This document shows positions 2,298-18,822 of a stretch of 22,451 nucleotides of DNA, in pieces. Under the pieces are notes generated by a model. The model was given only the letters and a program-made list of their open reading frames with translations. It was not told the DNA's origin and did no database searches. Numbering within the stretch: position 1 is the stretch's first letter; the number at the start of each line of letters is the position of its first letter. The position numbers and the translations under genes were made by a program. Source of the DNA: Parietichytrium sp. I65-24A. Taxonomy: Eukaryota > Sar > Bigyra > Thraustochytrida > Thraustochytriidae. The stretch is taken from positions 1-22,451 of the forward strand of contig BLSF01000141.1 in the NCBI GenBank assembly GCA_012862575.1, read 5' to 3'.

Positions 2298-2307
2298 ATA
2301 TAATTTT

Positions 2308-2394
2308 TGGAAGGGATAGGATTTGAACCTACGACATTTATTAAAATGTGGTTGTTTAGCAAACAACTGCAATAAACCACTCTGCCACCCTTCC
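2308..2394 (-). tRNA. trnS: tRNA-Ser(GCT)
   Basis: A class II tRNA with a long variable arm (ACATTT/AAATGT stem). The acceptor stem GGAAGGG/CCCTTCC is perfect. The anticodon stem GTTGT/ACAAC encloses loop TTGCTAA with anticodon GCT, which reads AGC and AGU codons. Its 5' end abuts the 3' end of the candidate 5S rRNA gene, so tRNA processing could release that RNA. Confidence 0.95.
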
Positions 2395-2395
2395 A

Positions 2396-2498
2396 AAAGT
2401 ACTAAGTTTAACTCCCTAAAAAGGTACTTAACTAGTACTCAAATTGACTGAAGTTCGGTATGTTTTTCAGTTAAAAAACTTAAATATTATTGTGCTTT
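2396..2498 (-). rRNA. rrn5: Candidate mitochondrial 5S rRNA
   Basis: About 103 bases between the 3' end of rns and trnS(GCU) fold like a 5S rRNA. Seen in the sequence, as RNA on the minus strand: helix III ACUGAA/UUCAGU closes a 13-base loop AAACAUACCGAAC (2453-2465), matching bacterial loop C CCCCAUGCCGAAC in length and in its CAUnCCGAAC core. Helix II UUAAGUU (2477-2483) pairs with AAUUUGA (2439-2445). The 5' end AAAGCAC pairs with the 3' end GUACUUU through one C-A mismatch, giving helix I. Downstream, UUAGGGAGUU resembles the bacterial GUAGGGAACU of the helix IV-V side, and GUACU/AGUAC can form a short hairpin. It is shorter than the usual 116-120 bases. Exact ends and the loop E region are uncertain. 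The alternative is plain spacer with a chance hairpin, which I find unlikely given the loop C match. Confidence 0.72.
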
Positions 2499-2509
2499 AA
2501 ATATTTTAA

Positions 2510-3860
2510 TTATAATTTCAGCCACAAGTTCACTTACGGCTACCTTGTTACGACTTCATTACAATCGCCTCTCTTTTTTTCAAAATATCGAATATTTCTT
2601 CAAAAAAGATCAACTCTCATAACGTGACGGGCGGTATGTACAAAACTAAGATAAAATTTCACCACAACTTTCTAATTCGTGATTACTAGCAATTCCATCT
2701 TCATAAAGGTGAATTTCAACCTTTAATCTGAACTAAGATAAAGTTTAAAGGTTTGCTCCAGATTACTCTATTGCTTCTCATTGTCTTTACCTTTGTAACA
2801 CGTTTGAAGCCCAAATCTATAAGGGTCATGAAGATTTGACGTAATTCCCTCTTTCATCTCAATTATCTTGAGCAATCTACAATAGTGAAACACTAAAGTA
2901 AAAGAGTTGCGCTCGTTTAAGGACTTAACCATACATTTCAAAACACGAGCTGACGACAACCATGCAACACCTGTTTTATTTTATAAAAAATAACTGTCAA
3001 AGATTGGTAAGATTTTCGTGTATTGTCGAATTAATCAACATGTTCCACTGCCTTTAATTAGTTCCCGTCAATTCCTTTGAATTTCAGCATTGCTGCTATA
3101 CTATTCAGGTGGTTTTCTTAGCGTTAGCTTAAATACAAAAAACTCCAAAGAGTCAAAAAGTATTAAGAAAACATAGTTTACGGCGTAGACTAAAAGGGTC
3201 TCTAATCCTTGTTGCTACCTACGCTTTCGTTCCTCAATGTCAGTATAATATCAGAAAAGTGCCTTCGCCTTAGATATTCCTCTTAAGATCAACCAATTTT
3301 ACCTGTTCCTTAAGAATTCTCTTTTCCTTATATTTACTCAAGTAAAGTAGTATACCTTACGAAAATGAATTTTAATTCACTCTTTAATAAAGCACACACA
3401 AAACAATCTACGAACCCTTTACACCCAATCATTCCAAATAACGCTTGCCCTTTACGTTTTACCGCGACTGCTGGCACGTAATTAGTCAGGACTAATTTTT
3501 TAAAAGATCATTCTTCCTTTAAATATTAAACTTTACAACTAAATAGCCTTCATCATTTATGTAGTATTGCTGGATCAAACTTACGTTTATTGTCCAAGAT
3601 TCCCCACTGCTGCCATAGATGGATGGGCCTTTCTCAGTCCCATTGTGGCAGATCGTTCTTTCAAACCTGCTAAAGATCATCGACTTGGTAAGCTTTAACC
3701 TCACCAACTATCTATTCTTGCTCAAGCTTATCCATTAGAAAACTATGGGCAAATTCTTAAGTGATACTCACCTGTCCGCAATAAATATAAATTTATTACT
3801 AGCATGTGTAAAGCATACTACAAGCGTTCATTTTGAGCCAGGATCAAACTCACAATAGTT
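2510..3860 (-). rRNA. rns: Small subunit ribosomal RNA
   Basis: Complete mitochondrial 16S-like rRNA of about 1.35 kb. On the minus strand the 5' end has GAGTTTGATCCTGGCTCA (complement near 3834-3851). The 530 loop GTGCCAGCAGTCGCGGTAA lies near 3458-3477. ATTAGAGACCC and the downstream GTAAAC lie near 3177-3208. The 3' domain motif GTACATACCGCCCGTCACG is near 2622-2640, and GTCGTAACAAGGTAGCCGTA is near 2533-2552. No intron or break was seen. The ends are estimated to within about 10 bases. Any reading frames inside it are spurious. Confidence 0.95.
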
Positions 3861-3911
3861 AATAAGTATTAATACAATAAAAGCAATAAAATAATATAAG
3901 TTAATTTTTAA
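3861..3911. other. AT-rich spacer between rnl and rns
   Basis: About 50 bases of nearly pure A and T separate the two rRNAs. It contains the 10-base palindrome GTATTAATAC at 3866-3875, immediately upstream of the rns 5' end. This could mark an RNA processing or initiation site, but nothing in the sequence proves that. Confidence 0.35.
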
Positions 3912-6438
3912 ATAATGTACAGTTAGTGTTTTTAAGCTTAAAATCTTACGATCCTTACACAAAAAACCTATCTACGAAATGATGTCTATTTCAGTACTAA
4001 GAAAAAAAATAAAGAAAGTTTCTTGCTTAGATGCTTTCAGCAATTATCTTTAATTAACGTAGCTACTCTACAATGCTTATACAACAATAGATACACCATA
4101 GGTTAAAATTAAACGGTCCTCTCGTACTAGTTTAAACACTTTACTTTTTTCAGTTCTATAGAAGATAGAAACCAAACTGCCTCACGGCGTTCTAAACCCA
4201 GTTCATGTAACATTTTAATCAGCGAACAGCTAAACCCTTGACACCTACTACAGCACCAGGATATGTTAAACCGACATCGAGGTGCCAAACATTTTCATCG
4301 ATATGGACTCTCAAAAAATATAAGCCTGTTATCCCTAAGGTACCTTTTATTTGTTAAGCGATATCTTTTCCATTCAAAAATACCGGATCCCTATAACCAG
4401 CTTATTAAACTACTGCTCGAAATATCTTTCTTACAGTAAAGCAAACTTTTGCTATTGCACAGTTAATAAATTCTATATTAATCTATTGTTTGCCTTTGTA
4501 CTCCTCCGTTACTCTTTAGGAGGAACCCGCCCCAGGTAAACTACCAGCAATACAATTTCCTTTACATTGTAAAGTAAGTTCACTTTTATATAAAAATGGT
4601 CTCTCACTTTTGACAGAAGTCTCCCACTTAAACTGTATTTACATAAAAAATAAACATTGTATTGGTGCAGTAAAGGTCTATAGGGTCTTTTCGTCCCTCT
4701 ACAGATAAGCTGCATCTTCACAGCTATTTCAATTTCACTAGGACTTTCGTTGAGACATTTAGGCAGTCGTTACACCTTTCATGCAGGATCATAATTAGTG
4801 ACCAATGAATTTCGCTACCTTAGGACGGTCATAGTTACCGCCGCCGTTTATAGAAGTTTATATAAGAATCAAAAAACTCTTATTTTCACTATTCTACACT
4901 GGGCAGGTGTCAGCCCTTATACAACTTTTTACAAATTTGCAAAGACCTGTGTTTGTATTTAACAGTCGCTACCTACGATTTTTTGCAACCACTTTGTGGC
5001 TCTCCTTCTCCCAAAGTTACAGAGACATTTTGACGAGTTCCTTAACGAAAGTTATCCTATACGCCTTAGTACATTTATACTAACCTACCTGTGTTGGTTT
5101 TAGTACGATTTTATTGTAGCTGCTATTTCTTGGATAGCTACGCTACCGTCACAAGCTACAAAAATGTGAATTTTTACACATCCTCCATTACTTAAAACTA
5201 TCGTTTTGAAGCTTAGAAATCGTTTAACCTCTATTATGTCAAACATTAAATAGGAAACCTAAGGTTTACGGCGATTTTGATTCAAAACAAAATTACACGT
5301 TACTCATGCCAGAATTTTCGCTTTTGATATCTTAAAATAATTTTTCAACTATTCCTTAATTATACAAAACGTTCTGCTACCTAAAGTAAAATTTTACTTT
5401 ATTACAGCTTCGGTATTTATCTTAGCCCTAAACATTTTCAGTTCAATAAACTTAAACTATTAATCTATTACGATTTTTTTAAAGGATGGCTGCTTCCAAG
5501 CCCACCTCTTAGTTGACATTAATTTACAAAACTTTTTCACTTAGATAAATTTATGGACCTTAGCTATTAATCTGGGCTGTATCCCTCTTGACTTAAAACC
5601 TTATCGCTTTAAGTCTGTTTACATTGCTTAACTTTGCATATTCGGAGTTTATCTAAAATCAGTAATCCGGAGACCCCTTTTTTAAACAGTTGCTCTACCC
5701 TACAAAGTAATTCATATGCACGCTACCTAAATAGCTTTCGCAGAAAACCAGCTATATCCAAGTTTGATTAGCCTTTCACCCCTATTCACATGTCATCCCA
5801 GTTTATTGCAACAAACACGGGTTCAGTCCTCCAATTTTTTTTCAAAAATCTTCAACTTGCACATAAATAGCTCACTTGGTTTCGGGTCTTAAAGAAAAAA
5901 CTGTCTAGTCTATTCAACTAAAAACACTTTCATTACGCCTACATTTTAAATTTAAGCTTGCTTTTTCTTTAAACTCTCTGGCCCGTTATACAAAAAGTAC
6001 GCTGTCATAAATAAAAATTTACTCCAACTGCTTTTCAGCATTTAAGTTTTATTCTTTCCTTTACAGTACTAGTGCACTATCAGTTAATATTAATTATAAG
6101 CTTTGAAGATGGTACTCCAATATTCAATTTCAAAAGCGTTTAGAAATTTACTTAAATATTTAACTTGTCTAATATACAGGACTATTAACCTTGTCTCGTA
6201 AATTTTTCTATTAGTTCTAAGCTAAAAGCTTTTCTGGAATCGCTCGCCACTACTACCAGATTCTCGTTTGATTTCTTTAACTGCTACTAAGATGTTTCAA
6301 TTCACAGCATTTTATATTTTTTATAAAAACGGTTTTCCTTAGGGAATTTAAGCTTCATCTTTATGATACACTTAACTTTTCGCATTTTGATTACGCCCTG
6401 ATTAATATTACTTAGAAGCCACTTAATGCTTTATATCA
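3912..6438 (-). rRNA. rnl: Large subunit ribosomal RNA
   Basis: Complete mitochondrial 23S-like rRNA of about 2.5 kb. On the minus strand the sarcin-ricin loop AGTACGAGAGGACCG is near 4114-4129. The helix 90-92 region GGCACCTCGATGTCG is near 4272-4288. The helix 69-71 region, including GGTAGCGAAATTCATTGGTC, is near 4800-4825. The 5' end begins just after trnG, where TAAGTGGCTTCTAAG corresponds to the bacterial GGTGGATGCC region. It precedes rns in transcription order, the reverse of the bacterial 16S-23S order. No intron was seen. The 3' end is estimated from AAAACACTAACTGTAC and may be off by 20 bases. Confidence 0.94.
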
Positions 6439-6441
6439 TTT

Positions 6442-6513
6442 AGCGAGTAAAGGGATTTGAACCCTTACTATTAGTTTGGAAGACTAAGGTGCTAACCATT
6501 ACACTACACTCGC
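6442..6513 (-). tRNA. trnG: tRNA-Gly(TCC)
   Basis: The acceptor stem GCGAGTG/TACTCGC is paired throughout, with one G-T at the inner end. The anticodon stem TTAGT/ACTAA encloses loop CTTCCAA with anticodon TCC. The T-arm is AAGGG/CCCTT and the discriminator is U. It separates nad7 from rnl and would release the rnl 5' end on processing. Confidence 0.95.
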
Positions 6514-6524
6514 AAAAAATTAAA

Positions 6525-7721
6525 TTATCTGTCTACTTCTCCGAAAACAATATCTTGAGTACCAATAATAGTTACCACATCAGCAATCAAATGACCTTTT
6601 GCTATAAAATCTAGTCCTTGCAAATGAGCAAAACCCGGTGCTTTTATTTTACACCTATAAGGTTTAGATGTATTATTAGAAACCAAAAAAACTCCAAACT
6701 CACCTTTTGGAGCTTCTGTACCTATATAAACTTCACCGTGAGGAACTTGAAATCCTTCAGAATAAAGTTTAAAATGGTGAATTAGAGCTTCTATATCTTG
6801 TTTTAGTTTAGACCTTTGAGGAGAACTATATTTGAAATTGTCAATTTTAATAGCTCCTTCTGGAATCTGGTTAATTGCCTGCAAAATAATAGAAACAGAT
6901 TGCCGCATTTCTTCTATTCGAATCAAATAACGATCATAGCAATCACCTTGAGTACCTACTGGAACATCAAATTTAAATTCTTCATATACTTCATATGGCA
7001 TATTCTGCCTCAAATCCCAAGGAATACCTGAGCCCCGAAGTATTACACCACTAAACCCCCAATCTTTAGCTTCTTGACTACTAACAACTCCAATATTTAC
7101 AAGCCGTTGTTTCCAAATTCGATTTCCTGTAAGCAACTCATCAAATTCATCCAACCGAATTTTAAATGACTCACAAAAAACATAAAGGTCATTCAAAAGT
7201 CCTTTTGGAAGATCAAATGCCACTCCACCAGGACGAACATATGCAGCATGTATACGTGCTCCTGAAACACGTTCATAAAATTCTATAAGTTTTTCTCGTT
7301 CTTCAAAACCCCAAAAATATATGGTTATTGCCCCTACATCAAGTGCATGACAACTAACTGCCAACAAATGATTCAACAATCGGGTAATTTCCAAAAAAAT
7401 AACACGAATATATTGTGCTCTTTTTGGAACAGCCAAATTTGCCAAAGACTCTACCGCTATAGAATAAGTATGTTCTTGAGCTATTATAGAAACATAATCA
7501 AGGCGGTCAAAATAAGGTAGTGCCTGCATAAAATTTTTATGCTCAACTAGTTTTTCGGAACCTCTGTGAAGCAATCCAATATGAGGGTCTGCCTTTAGTA
7601 CTGTTTCACCTTTCAAAGTCAACACAAGTCGAAGTACTCCATGAGCTGCCGGATGCTGAGGACCAAAATTAAGAGTAAAATTTTTTATTTCTTTATTTAT
7701 TATTCTCTTAGTAAGTGCCAT
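6525..7721 (-). CDS. nad7: NADH dehydrogenase subunit 7 (complete copy)
   Basis: The 49-kDa subunit (NuoD-like) of complex I, in the peripheral arm next to the quinone site. The 398-residue product is full length for the family. It shows the N-terminal signature [13 protein letters not shown] at residues 19-31, the segment [12 protein letters not shown], the tract [18 protein letters not shown], and the C-terminal [13 protein letters not shown] chose the ATG at 7721; the frame is open seven codons upstream only through a TTG. It ends with TAA, 12 bases before trnG. This is the one intact copy: the partial nad7 sequences at 8014-9258 are assembly duplicates and should not be counted as genes. 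Confidence 0.97.
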
Positions 7722-7743
7722 TAATATTTTCGTTATATTCAAA

Positions 7744-7791
7744 TTTTTTGAGAGAAAGTAGTAAAAATGAATTTTTTTCTCTCTTAAAAAA
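7744..7791 (-). promoter_or_regulatory. Hairpin in the rpl16-nad7 spacer
   Basis: The 95-base spacer between rpl16 and nad7 is the longest between protein genes here. It holds an inverted repeat, GAGAGAAA (7750-7757) against TTTCTCTC (7776-7783). The repeat extends by a further T-run/A-run pairing after a two-base bulge, with an 18-base loop. It could be an RNA processing or stability element for the rpl16-nad7 transcript. The same sequence is repeated at 9260-9307 because of the assembly duplication. Its function is inferred only from structure. Confidence 0.4.
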
Positions 7792-7817
7792 GTAACTTAG
7801 ACTGATTTCTACAGTGA

Positions 7818-8012
7818 TTAAATTAGTACTTTTGACCATACCTTTGTTTTAATGGGAAGTTTTTTGGCTGCTTTATGCAACGCTAGCAATCCTATTTCAC
7901 GCTGAACAAAATCAAGCTCAAAAAGCATTTGTCCTGGCTGTACTTTACATGCCCAAAAAGAAACAGACCCTTTTCCTTTTCCTATACGTGAACCCAAAGC
8001 CTTTTTGGTGTA
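7818..8012 (-). other. Assembly duplicate of rpl16 3' end
   Basis: This segment encodes the last 64 residues of Rpl16 (from YTKKALGSR to the end) and is identical to 9334-9528. It is cut by the N at 8013. It is the right-hand end of the first contig, which overlaps the third contig, and is not a second gene. Confidence 0.9.
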
Positions 8013-8013
8013 N

Positions 8014-8606
8014 GGAGAACTATATTTGAAATTGTCAATTTTAATAGCTCCTTCTGGAATCTGGTTAATTGCCTGCAAAATAATAGAAACAGATTGCCGC
8101 ATTTCTTCTATTCGAATCAAATAACGATCATAGCAATCACCTTGAGTACCTACTGGAACATCAAATTTAAATTCTTCATATACTTCATATGGCATATTCT
8201 GCCTCAAATCCCAAGGAATACCTGAGCCCCGAAGTATTACACCACTAAACCCCCAATCTTTAGCTTCTTGACTACTAACAACTCCAATATTTACAAGCCG
8301 TTGTTTCCAAATTCGATTTCCTGTAAGCAACTCATCAAATTCATCCAACCGAATTTTAAATGACTCACAAAAAACATAAAGGTCATTCAAAAGTCCTTTT
8401 GGAAGATCAAATGCCACTCCACCAGGACGAACATATGCAGCATGTATACGTGCTCCTGAAACACGTTCATAAAATTCTATAAGTTTTTCTCGTTCTTCAA
8501 AACCCCAAAAATATATGGTTATTGCCCCTACATCAAGTGCATGACAACTAACTGCCAACAAATGATTCAACAATCGGGTAATTTCCAAAAAAATAACACG
8601 AATATA
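8014..8606 (-). other. Assembly duplicate of internal nad7
   Basis: 593 bases bounded by Ns at 8013 and 8607 appear identical to 6820-7412 inside the intact nad7. The segment lacks both ends of the gene. It is best read as a small contig that was placed beside the contig it overlaps. A true tandem copy would be expected to have its own start, stop or some divergence. Confidence 0.9.
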
Positions 8607-8607
8607 N

Positions 8608-8687
8608 CGTTTACCTAAATTCGTACTTTCCTAGTAAGACAACTCATACTAAATTCACTACCCAAACCGTTAAATTTTAAATGACTC
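8608..8687 (-). other. Error-rich copy of nad7 sequence
   Basis: This looks like unrelated DNA at first. It aligns to nad7 around 7102-7171 once small insertions every 5-10 bases are allowed: shared blocks include AAATTCG, TTTCCT, CAACTCAT, AAATTCA and AATTTTAAATGACTCA. It is the left end of the third contig and is best explained as low-quality read sequence. It should not be translated. Confidence 0.8.
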
Positions 8688-9333
8688 AACAAAAAACATA
8701 AAGGTCATTCAAAAGTCCTTTTGGAAGATCAAATGCCACTCCACCAGGACGAACATATGCAGCATGTATACGTGCTCCTGAAACACGTTCATAAAATTCT
8801 ATAAGTTTTTCTCGTTCTTCAAAACCCCAAAAATATATGGTTATTGCCCCTACATCAAGTGCATGACAACTAACTGCCAACAAATGATTCAACAATCGGG
8901 TAATTTCCAAAAAAATAACACGAATATATTGTGCTCTTTTTGGAACAGCCAAATTTGCCAAAGACTCTACCGCTATAGAATAAGTATGTTCTTGAGCTAT
9001 TATAGAAACATAATCAAGGCGGTCAAAATAAGGTAGTGCCTGCATAAAATTTTTATGCTCAACTAGTTTTTCGGAACCTCTGTGAAGCAATCCAATATGA
9101 GGGTCTGCCTTTAGTACTGTTTCACCTTTCAAAGTCAACACAAGTCGAAGTACTCCATGAGCTGCCGGATGCTGAGGACCAAAATTAAGAGTAAAATTTT
9201 TTATTTCTTTATTTATTATTCTCTTAGTAAGTGCCATTAATATTTTCGTTATATTCAAATTTTTTGAGAGAAAGTAGTAAAAATGAATTTTTTTCTCTCT
9301 TAAAAAAGTAACTTAGACTGATTTCTACAGTGA
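8688..9333 (-). other. Assembly duplicate of nad7 5' part and spacer
   Basis: From about 8688 the sequence is identical to 7172-7817 at a constant offset of 1516. It carries the nad7 N-terminal portion, which ends at the ATG equivalent to 9237, and the rpl16-nad7 spacer. It belongs to the contig that continues into the intact rpl16. Counting it would wrongly give a truncated nad7 gene. Confidence 0.9.
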
Positions 9334-12776: not shown

Positions 12777-15074
12777 TTAAAACAAAAAATATAGGCCAAA
12801 CAAAAAAATAAGCCGGTAATCGAAGAAAGGAAGAAAAAACAAACCGCTAAAAAAAAGCAAGCTAACCAACATCAAAATCAAATAATGGTAAATTTGTCCA
12901 CTTTGAACTTTAAATACAAAATTATTTACCTTCGCAATACTAAAAGAAATACCATAAGGACCAAATATTTCAAGTAGTCCTTTATCTAGATTCTGATATG
13001 TATGTTTATAAGAAGAATGTATAAATACCTGGCTAACAGATTCATTATACATCTTATCAAAAAACCATTTTCGGTTTAGGAAAGTATACATAAAAAGACC
13101 AATAGAACTTATTTTAATAGAAACCAAAATAAAACGAAAATAACTATAAAGAAAAAAAGCAGCACAAGCACCCATAAGAGAAAAAAATGTAGGAAGAAGT
13201 TTAATAGTTAGAGGCAAAAACTCAGCTTCAATTATAAGATAATTTGTAGGATAAAAAAAGATTACATTTGAAAAAAAAGAACTTCCAACTCCAATAATTA
13301 GATCTTTACAAAAATAACCAAAAAAAATACTTCCAAAAGACAAAATAAAAAGAGGCAAACTTATGCGCCACTGAGGCTCATGAGCTATACTATAAATTCT
13401 TTTATAGCCACGCGGAGGTGTCAAAAAAGTAAGCTGTAGCAATCTTATGGAATAAAAAGCAGTACAAACCGCTGCTATTGTACCCAACCAAAAAGCAAAA
13501 TGCCCATGATTAGAAAAATTTGCGTAAGCAAGTTCCAAAATAACGTCTTTAGAATAAAAACCAGTTAGAAATGGAAAACCTATAAGAGCCAAAGACCCGA
13601 TAAATATTATTGTATAGCTATAAGGCAAAATATTTACAAGACCTCCTATACGACGCATATCTTGTTCATCATTTATAGCATGAATAACCGCACCTGCAGT
13701 CAAAAACAAAAGTGCTTTGAAAAATGCATGATTTGCCAAATGAAAAACTCCAACATGGTAAGCTGAAATTCCACAAGCAAATACTATATAACCAAGCTGT
13801 GAACAAGTTGAATAAGCAATTACTTTTTTTAGGTCATTCTGCAAAAGACCTGTAGTTGCCGCAAAAAATGAAGTTATAGCCCCGAATAGAGTAACTAGCC
13901 ACAAAGTAAACGTGCTGTATTCAAACAATGGTGAACTGCGAGCAATTAGAAAAACACCTGCAGTTACCATAGTAGCGGCGTGAATTAGAGCTGAAACAGG
14001 AGTAGGACCTTCTATTGCACGAGTAGTGTNTGAACAAGTTGAATAAGCAATTACTTTTTTTAGGTCATTCTGCAAAAGACCTGTAGTTGCCGCAAAAAAA
14101 TGAAGTTATAGCCCCGAATAGAGTAACTAGCCACAAAGTAAACGTGCTGTATTCAAACAATGGTGAACTGCGAGCAATTAGAAAAACACCTGCAGTTACC
14201 ATAGTAGCGGCGTGAATTAGAGCTGAAACAGGAGTAGGACCTTCTATTGCATCAGGCAACCATGTATGTAGACCCAACTGCGCTGATTTACCTACTGCAC
14301 CAATAAAAAGCAAAAATGTAGCTACTTCAATAAAATTCAAATGAAAATTCAAGAATACAAAAGATTTATTTAGGCTCAAAGGAGCCAGTGCAAACACTGT
14401 AGCATAATCTGTGGCACCGTATTCCAAATAAAGTAGAATAATACCAATAGCCAATCCAAAATCTCCAACGCGATTTACTAGCATAGCCTTAATTGCAGCT
14501 TTATTTGCTTGAATTCGTGTAAACCAAAAATTAATAAGCAAATAAGAACACAATCCAACACCTTCCCAACCAACAAATATTTGTACATAATTATCTGCAG
14601 TAACCAAAATAATTATGAAAAAGTAAAAAGTGAAAGATAACTTATAAATCGACTCAAATGAGGATCATATTCTATATATTCAGTAGAATACAAATGAACC
14701 AAAGTTGATACAGAAGTTACTACAATCAATATCAATAGGGTCAAACTATCAAACAAAAAACNTATATATTCAGTAGAATACAAATGAACCAAAGTTGATA
14801 CAGAAGTTACTACAATCAATATCAATAGGGTCAAACTATCAAACAAAAAACCCCACTGAACATTAAAAAAACCTGAAGTTATCCAAGGGCTTAGATTAAA
14901 ACAAATAACAAGCCCTGTTTGAATATTAAACAAAAAATAAAACAAAGAAGTCAAAAAAGTCAAAAAGATCAAGCTTGTGGACAAAAATATACTTCCTTTA
15001 TGCCCAAGAAATCTTCCAAAAAACCCTGATACAACTGCACTCAACAAAGGTATCAAAAGAATAGAAAAACTCAT
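12777..15074 (-). CDS. nad5: NADH dehydrogenase subunit 5 (assembly-broken)
   Basis: Proton-pumping antiporter-like subunit at the far end of the complex I membrane arm. It reads from ATG at 15074 ([24 protein letters not shown]) to TAA at 12779-12777. Key family segments are [27 protein letters not shown] and [35 protein letters not shown]. Three assembly faults interrupt it: an 89-base duplicate around the N at 14762; a 219-base duplicate with a barcode tag around the N at 14030; and a one-base loss in the A5 run at 14618-14622 (complement T5) that shifts the frame near residue FTF. Collapsing the duplicates gives about 658 residues, normal for Nad5. I interpret the gene as functional in the organism. 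Confidence 0.95.
13800..14018 (-). repeat. Overlap duplicate in nad5 (first copy)
   Basis: 219 bases match 14031-14250 except for one base in an A run: six As at 13863-13868 against seven at 14094-14100. The six-A version keeps the nad5 frame. The pair flanks the barcode tag and the N at 14030, so it is a contig overlap and not a biological repeat. Confidence 0.92.
14019..14029 (-). other. Residual sequencing barcode tag
   Basis: ACGAGTAGTGT, the reverse complement of ACACTACTCGT, sits exactly between the end of nad5-matching sequence and the N at 14030. The overlapping copy of nad5 does not contain it. From memory it matches a Roche 454 Rapid Library barcode. It is artificial sequence at a contig end. 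Confidence 0.88.
14673..14761 (-). repeat. Overlap duplicate in nad5 (second join)
   Basis: 89 bases are identical to 14763-14851 on the other side of the N at 14762. Translation gives the same Nad5 stretch twice ([18 protein letters not shown] and onward). This is a contig overlap and should be collapsed. Confidence 0.93.
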
Positions 15075-15913: not shown

Positions 15914-16601
15914 AAATTAATTGTTTAATTTCAAAGGAAATTTAAACTGAGCATAAAGAAAACGTTTTTTAAAAAATAGATTTTGTTTGTCTTGCATAAT
16001 AAAAATAATAGAAAATCCAAATATTTGCTGAAGCTTATAAAATTGACGAATTTCTTGTTCAAAATCTGGAAACAAATGAAAATTAGAAATACTTAGGCAA
16101 AAGCTGTTTTTAAAGTTTGCCGCCGTTTGTAGTTTTCTAAATTCATTTTGTTTTAGCTTTGGCATAAAAATAATAAGTAGTTGATCCAAAAACGAATACA
16201 TTTGAAGACCACGAAGCGTCAAAGATAGACCTACCAGTTGTTTTTTTCTAAGCTTCCAAAAAGCTACGTCTTCTGCAGAATAATTAAATTGAGGCTTTTG
16301 TTTTGTAAGCAGTTCTAGTATAAAATATAGCAACCCCAAAACATTTTGTGATTTAAAATTTACAGATTTAAAAGATATATGAATAACAATGCGCTCAAGA
16401 CCACTAAGAGAAAAGTCTGAAGTCAAAAAAGTATTTTGCAATGGCACCTCATAGCGCAATACCCGTTTATAATAATAAGAATACATTTAGATATATTTTG
16501 TTACTGTAAGCAAACGCAATTGGATTGCTTCTTTTTGAAGGCGAAATGCTAGAGGTTGATGTACTCTAGAAGAGATTGTTGCAAATTTCCCTTTCTTTTT
16601 T
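15914..16601 (-). repeat. Assembly duplicate of rpl5 and rpl14 3' end
   Basis: 688 bases appear identical to 16603-17290, separated only by the N at 16602. It contains a full rpl5 frame (15917-16486) and the last 115 bases of the rpl14 region (16487-16601). This low-coordinate copy is continuous with rps13 and the other with rpl14, as expected for two overlapping contigs. There is one rpl5 gene in reality. Confidence 0.92.
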
Positions 16602-16605
16602 NAAA

Positions 16606-17175
16606 TTAATTGTTTAATTTCAAAGGAAATTTAAACTGAGCATAAAGAAAACGTTTTTTAAAAAATAGATTTTGTTTGTCTTGCATAATAAAAATAATAG
16701 AAAATCCAAATATTTGCTGAAGCTTATAAAATTGACGAATTTCTTGTTCAAAATCTGGAAACAAATGAAAATTAGAAATACTTAGGCAAAAGCTGTTTTT
16801 AAAGTTTGCCGCCGTTTGTAGTTTTCTAAATTCATTTTGTTTTAGCTTTGGCATAAAAATAATAAGTAGTTGATCCAAAAACGAATACATTTGAAGACCA
16901 CGAAGCGTCAAAGATAGACCTACCAGTTGTTTTTTTCTAAGCTTCCAAAAAGCTACGTCTTCTGCAGAATAATTAAATTGAGGCTTTTGTTTTGTAAGCA
17001 GTTCTAGTATAAAATATAGCAACCCCAAAACATTTTGTGATTTAAAATTTACAGATTTAAAAGATATATGAATAACAATGCGCTCAAGACCACTAAGAGA
17101 AAAGTCTGAAGTCAAAAAAGTATTTTGCAATGGCACCTCATAGCGCAATACCCGTTTATAATAATAAGAATACAT
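16606..17175 (-). CDS. rpl5: Ribosomal protein L5, mitochondrial
   Basis: Large-subunit protein of the central protuberance; in bacteria it binds 5S rRNA. The 189-residue product fits the family (about 180). Family features seen are the N-terminal MYSYYYKRVLRYEV, the central QNVLGLLYFILELLTKQKPQF, and WKLRKKQLVGLSLTLRGLQMYSFLDQLL, matching bacterial FKIREGxPIGxKVTLRGxRMYEFLDRLI. Start ATG directly follows the rpl14 stop (TAA ATG). An identical frame at 15917-16486 is a contig-overlap duplicate. Retention of L5 fits with the candidate 5S rRNA at 2396-2498, its expected binding partner. Confidence 0.95.
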   Translation of the reverse strand: MYSYYYKRVLRYEVPLQNTFLTSDFSLSGLERIVIHISFKSVNFKSQNVLGLLYFILELLTKQKPQFNYSAEDVAFWKLRKKQLVGLSLTLRGLQMYSFLDQLLIIFMPKLKQNEFRKLQTAANFKNSFCLSISNFHLFPDFEQEIRQFYKLQQIFGFSIIFIMQDKQNLFFKKRFLYAQFKFPLKLNN

Positions 17176-18379: not shown

Positions 18380-18451
18380 ACGCGGAGGTAGGATTTGAAC
18401 CTACGACTTTTAGGGCATGAACCTAATGAGATACCACTTCTCTACTCCGCA
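18380..18451 (-). tRNA. trnfM: Initiator tRNA-Met(CAT)
   Basis: The acceptor stem TGCGGAG/CTCCGCG pairs with a weak U1-G72 at the end, as expected for an initiator, which needs a non-Watson-Crick first pair for formylation. The D-stem is GAGA/TCTC. The anticodon stem TTAGG/CCTAA encloses loop TTCATGC with anticodon CAT. The T-arm is GTAGG/CCTAC. The base at position 73 is T rather than the usual A. Its first ten bases overlap the nad3 3' end. Confidence 0.9.
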
Positions 18452-18822
18452 AAAAATAATTCCCATTCAAGGGCTCCAATTCGCCAAACATAAAAAAAAC
18501 CGATCAAAAGTTCTACAATAAAATCAATTATAGACCAAAAGCCAAAACTAGAAAGACTATGGAGGGTAACAGACCAAGGAAAAAGAAAACTAGCTTCCAA
18601 ATCAAAAACCAAAAACAAAATTGCTACAAGATAAAATCGAATATCAAATTCGTTTCTAGCATCATCAAAAGGATCAAAACCACATTCATAAGCAGACAAC
18701 TTTTCTGCGTAACTATTACGATCACTAAAAAGAAAAGCTGCACCAAAAATTACAGCGGTCAAAATCAAAGCAATCAAAAAATAAATTCCAAGAATAAGGT
18801 ATTCAGAAAAAAAGAATGTCAT
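18442..18822 (-). CDS. nad3: NADH dehydrogenase subunit 3
   Basis: Small membrane subunit of complex I near the quinone channel. The 126-residue product has three hydrophobic segments and the conserved loop YECGFDPFDDARNEFDIRFYLVAILFLVFDLE, including the cysteine of the active/deactive switch. The family usually ends near GALEWE; here eight more residues (LFFAE included) follow before TAG at 18444-18442. That stop lies inside trnfM, giving a ten-base overlap. Either the gene truly ends inside the tRNA, or a homopolymer error hides an earlier end. It starts with ATG. Confidence 0.95.
   Translation of the reverse strand: MTFFFSEYLILGIYFLIALILTAVIFGAAFLFSDRNSYAEKLSAYECGFDPFDDARNEFDIRFYLVAILFLVFDLEASFLFPWSVTLHSLSSFGFWSIIDFIVELLIGFFYVWRIGALEWELFFAE

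Follow-up and report, generated by a model that had tools for sequence, protein, structure and literature searches.

A probable derived, AT-rich 5S rRNA gene (rrn5) behind rns in the mitochondrial DNA of the thraustochytrid Parietichytrium sp. I65-24A

In bacterial 5S rRNA (RF00001; ten sequences), a 13-nt loop C containing CAUNYCGAAC is closed by helix III and followed in order by UAC and GGGA, and the element described here is alike in all of these respects. Mitochondrial 5S genes are known in many lineages, including the stramenopiles, as set out in three papers (PMC11528492, PMC7194472, PMC8024477), and they have been reported patchily. The same papers describe genes in Leucomyxa and some diatoms that are encoded in mtDNA and missed by ordinary annotation, a likeness to the present element that is drawn from description; the Leucomyxa gene came to light through the Valach mitochondrial model alone (PMC11528492, PMC7194472, PMC8024477). 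In brown algae, which are also stramenopiles, the arms of mitochondrial 5S are circularly permuted (PMC11528492), whereas the order here is the ordinary one. The mt-5S of Polytomella magna is shortened, as the beta arm is in one relative discussed below (L012), and the Polytomella RNA has no domain alpha, H2 or H3 (PMC9576764), in contrast to the element here, which keeps helix I and the loop C arm. For the thraustochytrids, a paper on the Schizochytrium mitogenome lists two rRNA genes only (PMC7799850). A search of the available literature returned no paper with both Thraustochytrium and rrn5, and Valach et al. 2014 may already list a labyrinthulomycete.

The window, meaning the whole stretch of DNA analysed here, covers bases 1-22,451 of contig C141, which is 39,303 bases long and belongs to a 42.5-Mb assembly. 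The rnl, rns and trnS(GCU) genes all lie on its minus strand, and the interval 2396-2505 therefore falls after rns and before trnS in the direction of transcription. This gap is long compared with the median of 11 nt over the 40 gaps listed for this genome. On the basis of its sequence and that of its relatives, the minus strand of 2396-2498 very probably holds a labyrinthulomycete mitochondrial 5S rRNA gene (rrn5) that is derived and rich in A+T, and the 5S interpretation given in the preliminary description is thereby supported. The features of the region, all on the minus strand, are as follows.

3904-6445, minus strand: rnl (Rfam)
2506-3859, minus strand: rns, the upstream neighbour (Rfam)
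2396-2498, minus strand: proposed mitochondrial 5S rRNA gene (rrn5), 103 nt, from its position after rns and comparison with the related contigs L012, L015 and L016
2492-2498, minus strand: helix I, 5' strand AAAGCAC, 6 of 7 pairs with 2396-2402
2477-2483, minus strand: helix II, 5' strand UUAAGUU, 7 of 7 pairs with 2439-2445
2466-2471, minus strand: helix III, 5' strand ACUGAA, 6 bp with 2447-2452
2453-2465, minus strand: loop C, AAACAUACCGAAC, 13 nt, matching 9 of 9 bacterial core positions
2447-2452, minus strand: helix III, 3' strand UUCAGU, from comparison over four sequences
2439-2445, minus strand: helix II, 3' strand AAUUUGA, pairing with 2477-2483
2423-2426, minus strand: UACC block, 26 nt after loop C (bacterial counterpart UACU, 29 nt after loop C)
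2413-2416, minus strand: GGGA block of the helix IV-V strand, from the layout descriptor
2396-2402, minus strand: helix I, 3' strand GUACUUU, directly before the trnS gene called by ARAGORN
2307-2395, minus strand: trnS(GCU), the downstream neighbour (ARAGORN)

Much of the preliminary description is borne out by these features. The 13-base loop that it reported as closed by ACUGAA/UUCAGU is exactly AAACAUACCGAAC at 2465-2453, and the proposed likeness to loop C extends to every bacterial core position. The ends pair as helix I with the single mismatch it had noted, the stretch it likened to the helix IV-V strand (UUAGGGAGUU) does occur in the minus-strand interval 2396-2498, and the order rnl-rns-rrn5 holds as a same-strand series in which the element directly follows rns, the transcribed order being rnl-rns-element-trnS. 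The motif CATNCCGAAC occurs once in the window, compared with an expectation of 0.05, and 5 of 100 shuffles contain one. The proposed helix II fared less well, as all seven pairs form in the window (two of them G-U) but the helix is not conserved in relatives. Further differences from bacterial 5S are the absence of the AA bulge on helix III, a shorter helix IV, and a length of 85-103 nt in AT-rich sequence versus 114-123 nt. The loss of H2 from Polytomella mt-5S (PMC9576764) means that an unconserved helix II does not exclude membership of the 5S family.

Relatives were recovered by a nad7 scan of a bacterial genome collection, which led to contigs with mitochondrial gene content (L012-L018) that had been deposited within bacterial records, among them a Phycisphaerae MAG and a PVC-group genome from Bugula neritina. 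Scans of viral contigs with nad7 and with alignments of nad7 and of cob gave two loci in all, neither of which was recognised as mitochondrial when judged by tRNAs (both) and reading frames (L128 only). The nad7 identity to the window is 78% for L012 and 71-72% for L015, L016 and L017. Codon usage separates the contigs further. Across 20 gene stretches of the window, at 32% G+C, TTA occurs 7 times versus 238 for TTG, and nad3 (18436-18489) reads GALEWE-TTA-TTT, with TTA at the point where nad3 normally ends; TTA thus probably acts as a stop codon in the window. This avoidance fits the Thraustochytrium mitochondrial code (table 23). TTA is among the stop codons of the Schizochytrium mitogenome (PMC7799850), and on these grounds the window is assigned to a labyrinthulomycete. 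In the stretches matched by window proteins, L012, L015, L016 and L017 contain no TTA in 4,367 codons, and all four are consequently placed in the clade of the window; the corresponding counts are 67 of 742 codons in L013, 124 of 1,695 in L014 and 49 of 1,229 in L018.

The 3' flank of rns was compared in three of these relatives (L012, L015 and L016), and a similar element of 85-102 nt lies right after rns in all three. L012 has the same gene order as the window (nad7-trnG-rnl-rns-gap-trnS-trnQ-trnH). In L015 and L016, trnS is next to nad7, and the element is nonetheless still behind rns. These two contigs carry AAACAUCUCGAAC and AAACAUUUCGAAC, which form 13-nt loops with an A-U closing helix unlike that of the window, and their loop C core, like that of the window, matches at 9 of 9 positions. 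In L012, the nearest relative of the window, loop C is rewritten and matches at 6 of 9 core positions; its beta-arm hairpin, UCUAAUG[ACACUUGCAGAAA]CAUUAGA, places 7 bp on a 13-nt loop. The MAFFT alignment of L012 departs from this structural reading, which was preferred because it yields the 7-bp hairpin on a 13-nt loop, and the ambiguity stands. L015 and L016 agree closely from UUUUUUAU to AUAUAAAAA, save for a short variable patch after the loop; the flanks of this block are diverged, and its edges are the helix I strands. In L015, a reading frame starting ATGGTAAAAAGC runs downwards on the minus strand from about 15767, after the 5S-like element and at the place held by trnS in the window (by eye). 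L018 has no such element after rns, and the sequence that follows resembles cox3 (by eye).

Pairing was counted by script on a hand alignment of the four sequences (window, L012, L015 and L016), in which the cells are not independent because L015 and L016 are closely related. For helix III, 22 of 24 cells are paired and both sides have changed at all six pairs; sliding one strand by 1-3 positions leaves 5-13 of 24 cells paired, with both-sided changes at 0-1 pairs. For helix I, which was chosen among several outer pairings, others of which pair equally well or better, 27 of 28 cells are paired with both-sided changes at 7 of 7 pairs, and sliding leaves no more than 19 of 28 paired (13 of 20 for slides that overrun the end), with both-sided changes at 2-5 pairs. 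Both-sided changes thus occur at all 13 pairs of helices I and III. No comparable conserved helix II is present in L012, L015 or L016. The compensatory changes that the preliminary description had suggested seeking in related mtDNAs are therefore seen for helices I and III, which are kept in the three relatives, and not for helix II.

These comparisons bear on whether the element could be a decaying relic, descended from rrn5 and no longer a ribosomal component in at least some species of the clade. Such decay would account for weak model scores, an unconserved helix II and the rewritten loop C of L012, but it sits poorly with a block that is near-identical between L015 and L016 beside diverged flanks and with pairing that is maintained through changes on both sides, and we regard it as improbable.

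Folding of the single interval gives a different picture, as its lowest-energy fold consists of helix III and a long 3' hairpin and does not have the 5S shape (z -0.89; 36 of 200 shuffles fold as well). Hand-drawn 5S folds reach -5.4 and -8.7 kcal/mol versus -16.2 kcal/mol for the lowest-energy fold, and the free folds of L015 and L016 contain neither the 5S shape nor helix III. In all ten bacterial 5S sequences, too, the modelled canonical fold is higher in energy than the lowest-energy fold, and single-sequence folding is therefore uninformative. Among 20,000 dinucleotide shuffles of each interval, a hairpin whose 13-nt loop matches 8 or more of the 9 bacterial loop C core positions came up 2 times for the window interval, 11 for L015 and 8 for L016, and never for L012, which itself scores 6. 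The layout taken without the loop score arises in 17 (window), 2 (L012), 174 (L015) and 158 (L016) of 20,000 shuffles. A second alternative is a spacer with an RNA-processing hairpin before trnS, whose likeness to 5S would be due to chance. The long hairpin of the lowest-energy fold does end just before trnS in the window, and L012 has one near trnS. However, the rarity of the loop C hairpin among shuffles of the window, L015 and L016, together with the position of the element behind rns in L015 and L016 even though trnS is elsewhere, makes this explanation very unlikely.

The arrangement of parts that characterizes the proposed 5S gene was also searched for directly. The full descriptor requires a 13-nt loop, at least four closing pairs, UACY 24-30 nt on, GGGA and helix I, the last of which may differ as counted from helix I at 2492-2498/2396-2402. 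Combined with a loop-core score of at least 6, it finds four places in 13 mitochondrial pieces (170,528 bases, including L010, which is about half masked), all of them the elements after rns, and none in 73 loci filed as bacterial (1,342,237 bases); its spacing limits were set after viewing the four intervals, and these layout figures flatter the case accordingly. Without the loop score there are 19 mitochondrial matches and 36 in bacterial loci. In a control under looser limits than those of the mitochondrial scan, the true loop C was picked out by the descriptor for 7 of the 10 bacterial 5S sequences. UACY lies 25-26 nt after the loop in the four elements versus 29 in the bacterial 5S recovered, and GGGA lies 3-11 nt past UACY versus 14. 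A simpler rule, which asks for helix III and a match at 8 or more of the 9 loop-core positions, was derived from bacterial 5S and the window at a point when L015 and L016 had already been seen; in ten mitochondrial pieces it finds four places (the elements of the window, L015 and L016, and one in L014), with a shuffle expectation of 0.06 per 22,451 bases. At a loop-core limit of 7, eight pieces other than the window yield eight matches, comprising the L015 and L016 elements and six unrelated places, and the L012 element is missed. The L014 place (1063, minus strand) is loop-C-like and passes the loop and helix III rule, but it fails the full descriptor and was rejected; L014 is a TTA-using mtDNA, and the resemblance of the place to coding sequence is by eye only.

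The preliminary description had looked to the Rfam 5S model for confirmation, which was not forthcoming, as Rfam returned no 5S match in 2300-2600 at E up to 10, and relaxed thresholds gave none in L015 or L012 at E up to 10. A search of the organism's own genome with RF00001 placed none on C141 among the 35 places listed (47 of 2000 candidates scored). The expectation in the preliminary description that ordinary searches would miss the element is correct, since the short, AT-rich forms found here are invisible to Rfam models. A covariance model was also built from ten bacterial 5S sequences (114-123 nt); ten of 16 bacterial genomes had yielded a 5S match, and ten of 16 matches were used after excluding within-genome repeats and one partial match. 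This model aligns over its full length to 2393-2492 on the minus strand at an insignificant 9.3 bits (E 0.88), ranking second among 11 matches listed behind a trnS acceptor stem on the opposite strand (9.4 bits), and unrelated places in the remainder of C141 and in the contigs of the relatives score up to 12.6 bits. In short stretches, its partial match to loop C of L015 scores 4.7 bits (E 0.11 over 141 bases), and L012 reaches 1.4 bits. Covariance-model scores alone are no proof of 5S; with neither an Rfam 5S match nor a significant match to the bacterial model, the case for 5S rests on comparison. The Rfam family for the permuted mitochondrial 5S of brown algae, mtPerm-5S, likewise has no match in 2300-2600, and the element does not have its permuted arm order. 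Some other small RNA, or a 5S with circularly permuted arms of the kind that occurs in brown algae (PMC11528492), would suit the length of the interval but is hardly credible, given that ARAGORN finds no tRNA or tmRNA there, no Rfam family exceeds its gathering score, and the parts stand in ordinary, unpermuted order.

The likeliest role of the element, judged from sequence, would be the ordinary one as the 5S of the mitochondrial large subunit. In the displayed portion of the alignment, the region of the LSU rRNA that would face 5S (H81-88) can be aligned with the bacterial model. A search for nuclear uL18 with PF00861 found none, and divergent genes can be missed by such a search. The window also contains the following gene.

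16606-17175, minus strand: rpl5 (uL5m), the gene for the 5S-binding protein (Pfam PF00673, E 2.5e-9; NCBIfam 50S L5, 64.7 bits)

The NCBIfam score is below the cut-off of 186, and a second, identical copy of rpl5 lies at 15917-16486. The preliminary description had cited rpl5 as support for a working 5S; the gene is real, but it lends less support than was claimed, because Tetrahymena retains a reduced uL5m without 5S (PMC7326499). Consequently, rpl5 and the 5S-facing LSU region are compatible with 5S and are not proof of it.

If the element is a working 5S, as we infer, rnl-rns-rrn5-trnS would be co-transcribed, with an RNase P cut at the 5' end of trnS freeing the 3' end of rrn5 and its 5' end arising by trimming after rns. 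The RNA would fold into three arms, namely helix I, a beta arm capped by loop C, and a gamma arm of reduced length. It would sit in the central protuberance of the mitoribosome with its beta arm bound by the mtDNA-encoded uL5m.

Mitochondrial 5S as a kind is already known; the proposed gene here is marked by an unconserved helix II and by the 85-nt form in L012. If 5S is indeed present in this clade, then an annotation that lacks rrn5 would say little about whether the gene has been lost, and a reduced form would become available for studying how the central protuberance accommodates a 5S that is shrinking. We suggest tentatively, and with some doubt, that the labyrinthulomycete mitochondrial 5S has been caught in the course of shrinking, since loop C is canonical in the window, L015 and L016, and L012 combines a length of 85 nt and a 7-bp beta arm with a rewritten loop; in that event, binding of uL5m may have changed before any loss of the RNA. 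Were this so, the clade would offer a stepwise series for studying how a ribosome reshapes its 5S.

Two observations concern the assembly and the nuclear genome. Parts of nad7, nad5 and rpl5 are repeated in the window (6525-9258, 12777-15074 and 15917-17175), and single N letters occur at 8013, 8607, 14030, 14762, 16602 and 18980; taken together, these suggest joins made in assembly and not true duplications. In the nuclear genome, six or more cytosolic 5S genes stand in tandem at intervals of about 0.6 kb (C29:178026-181372).
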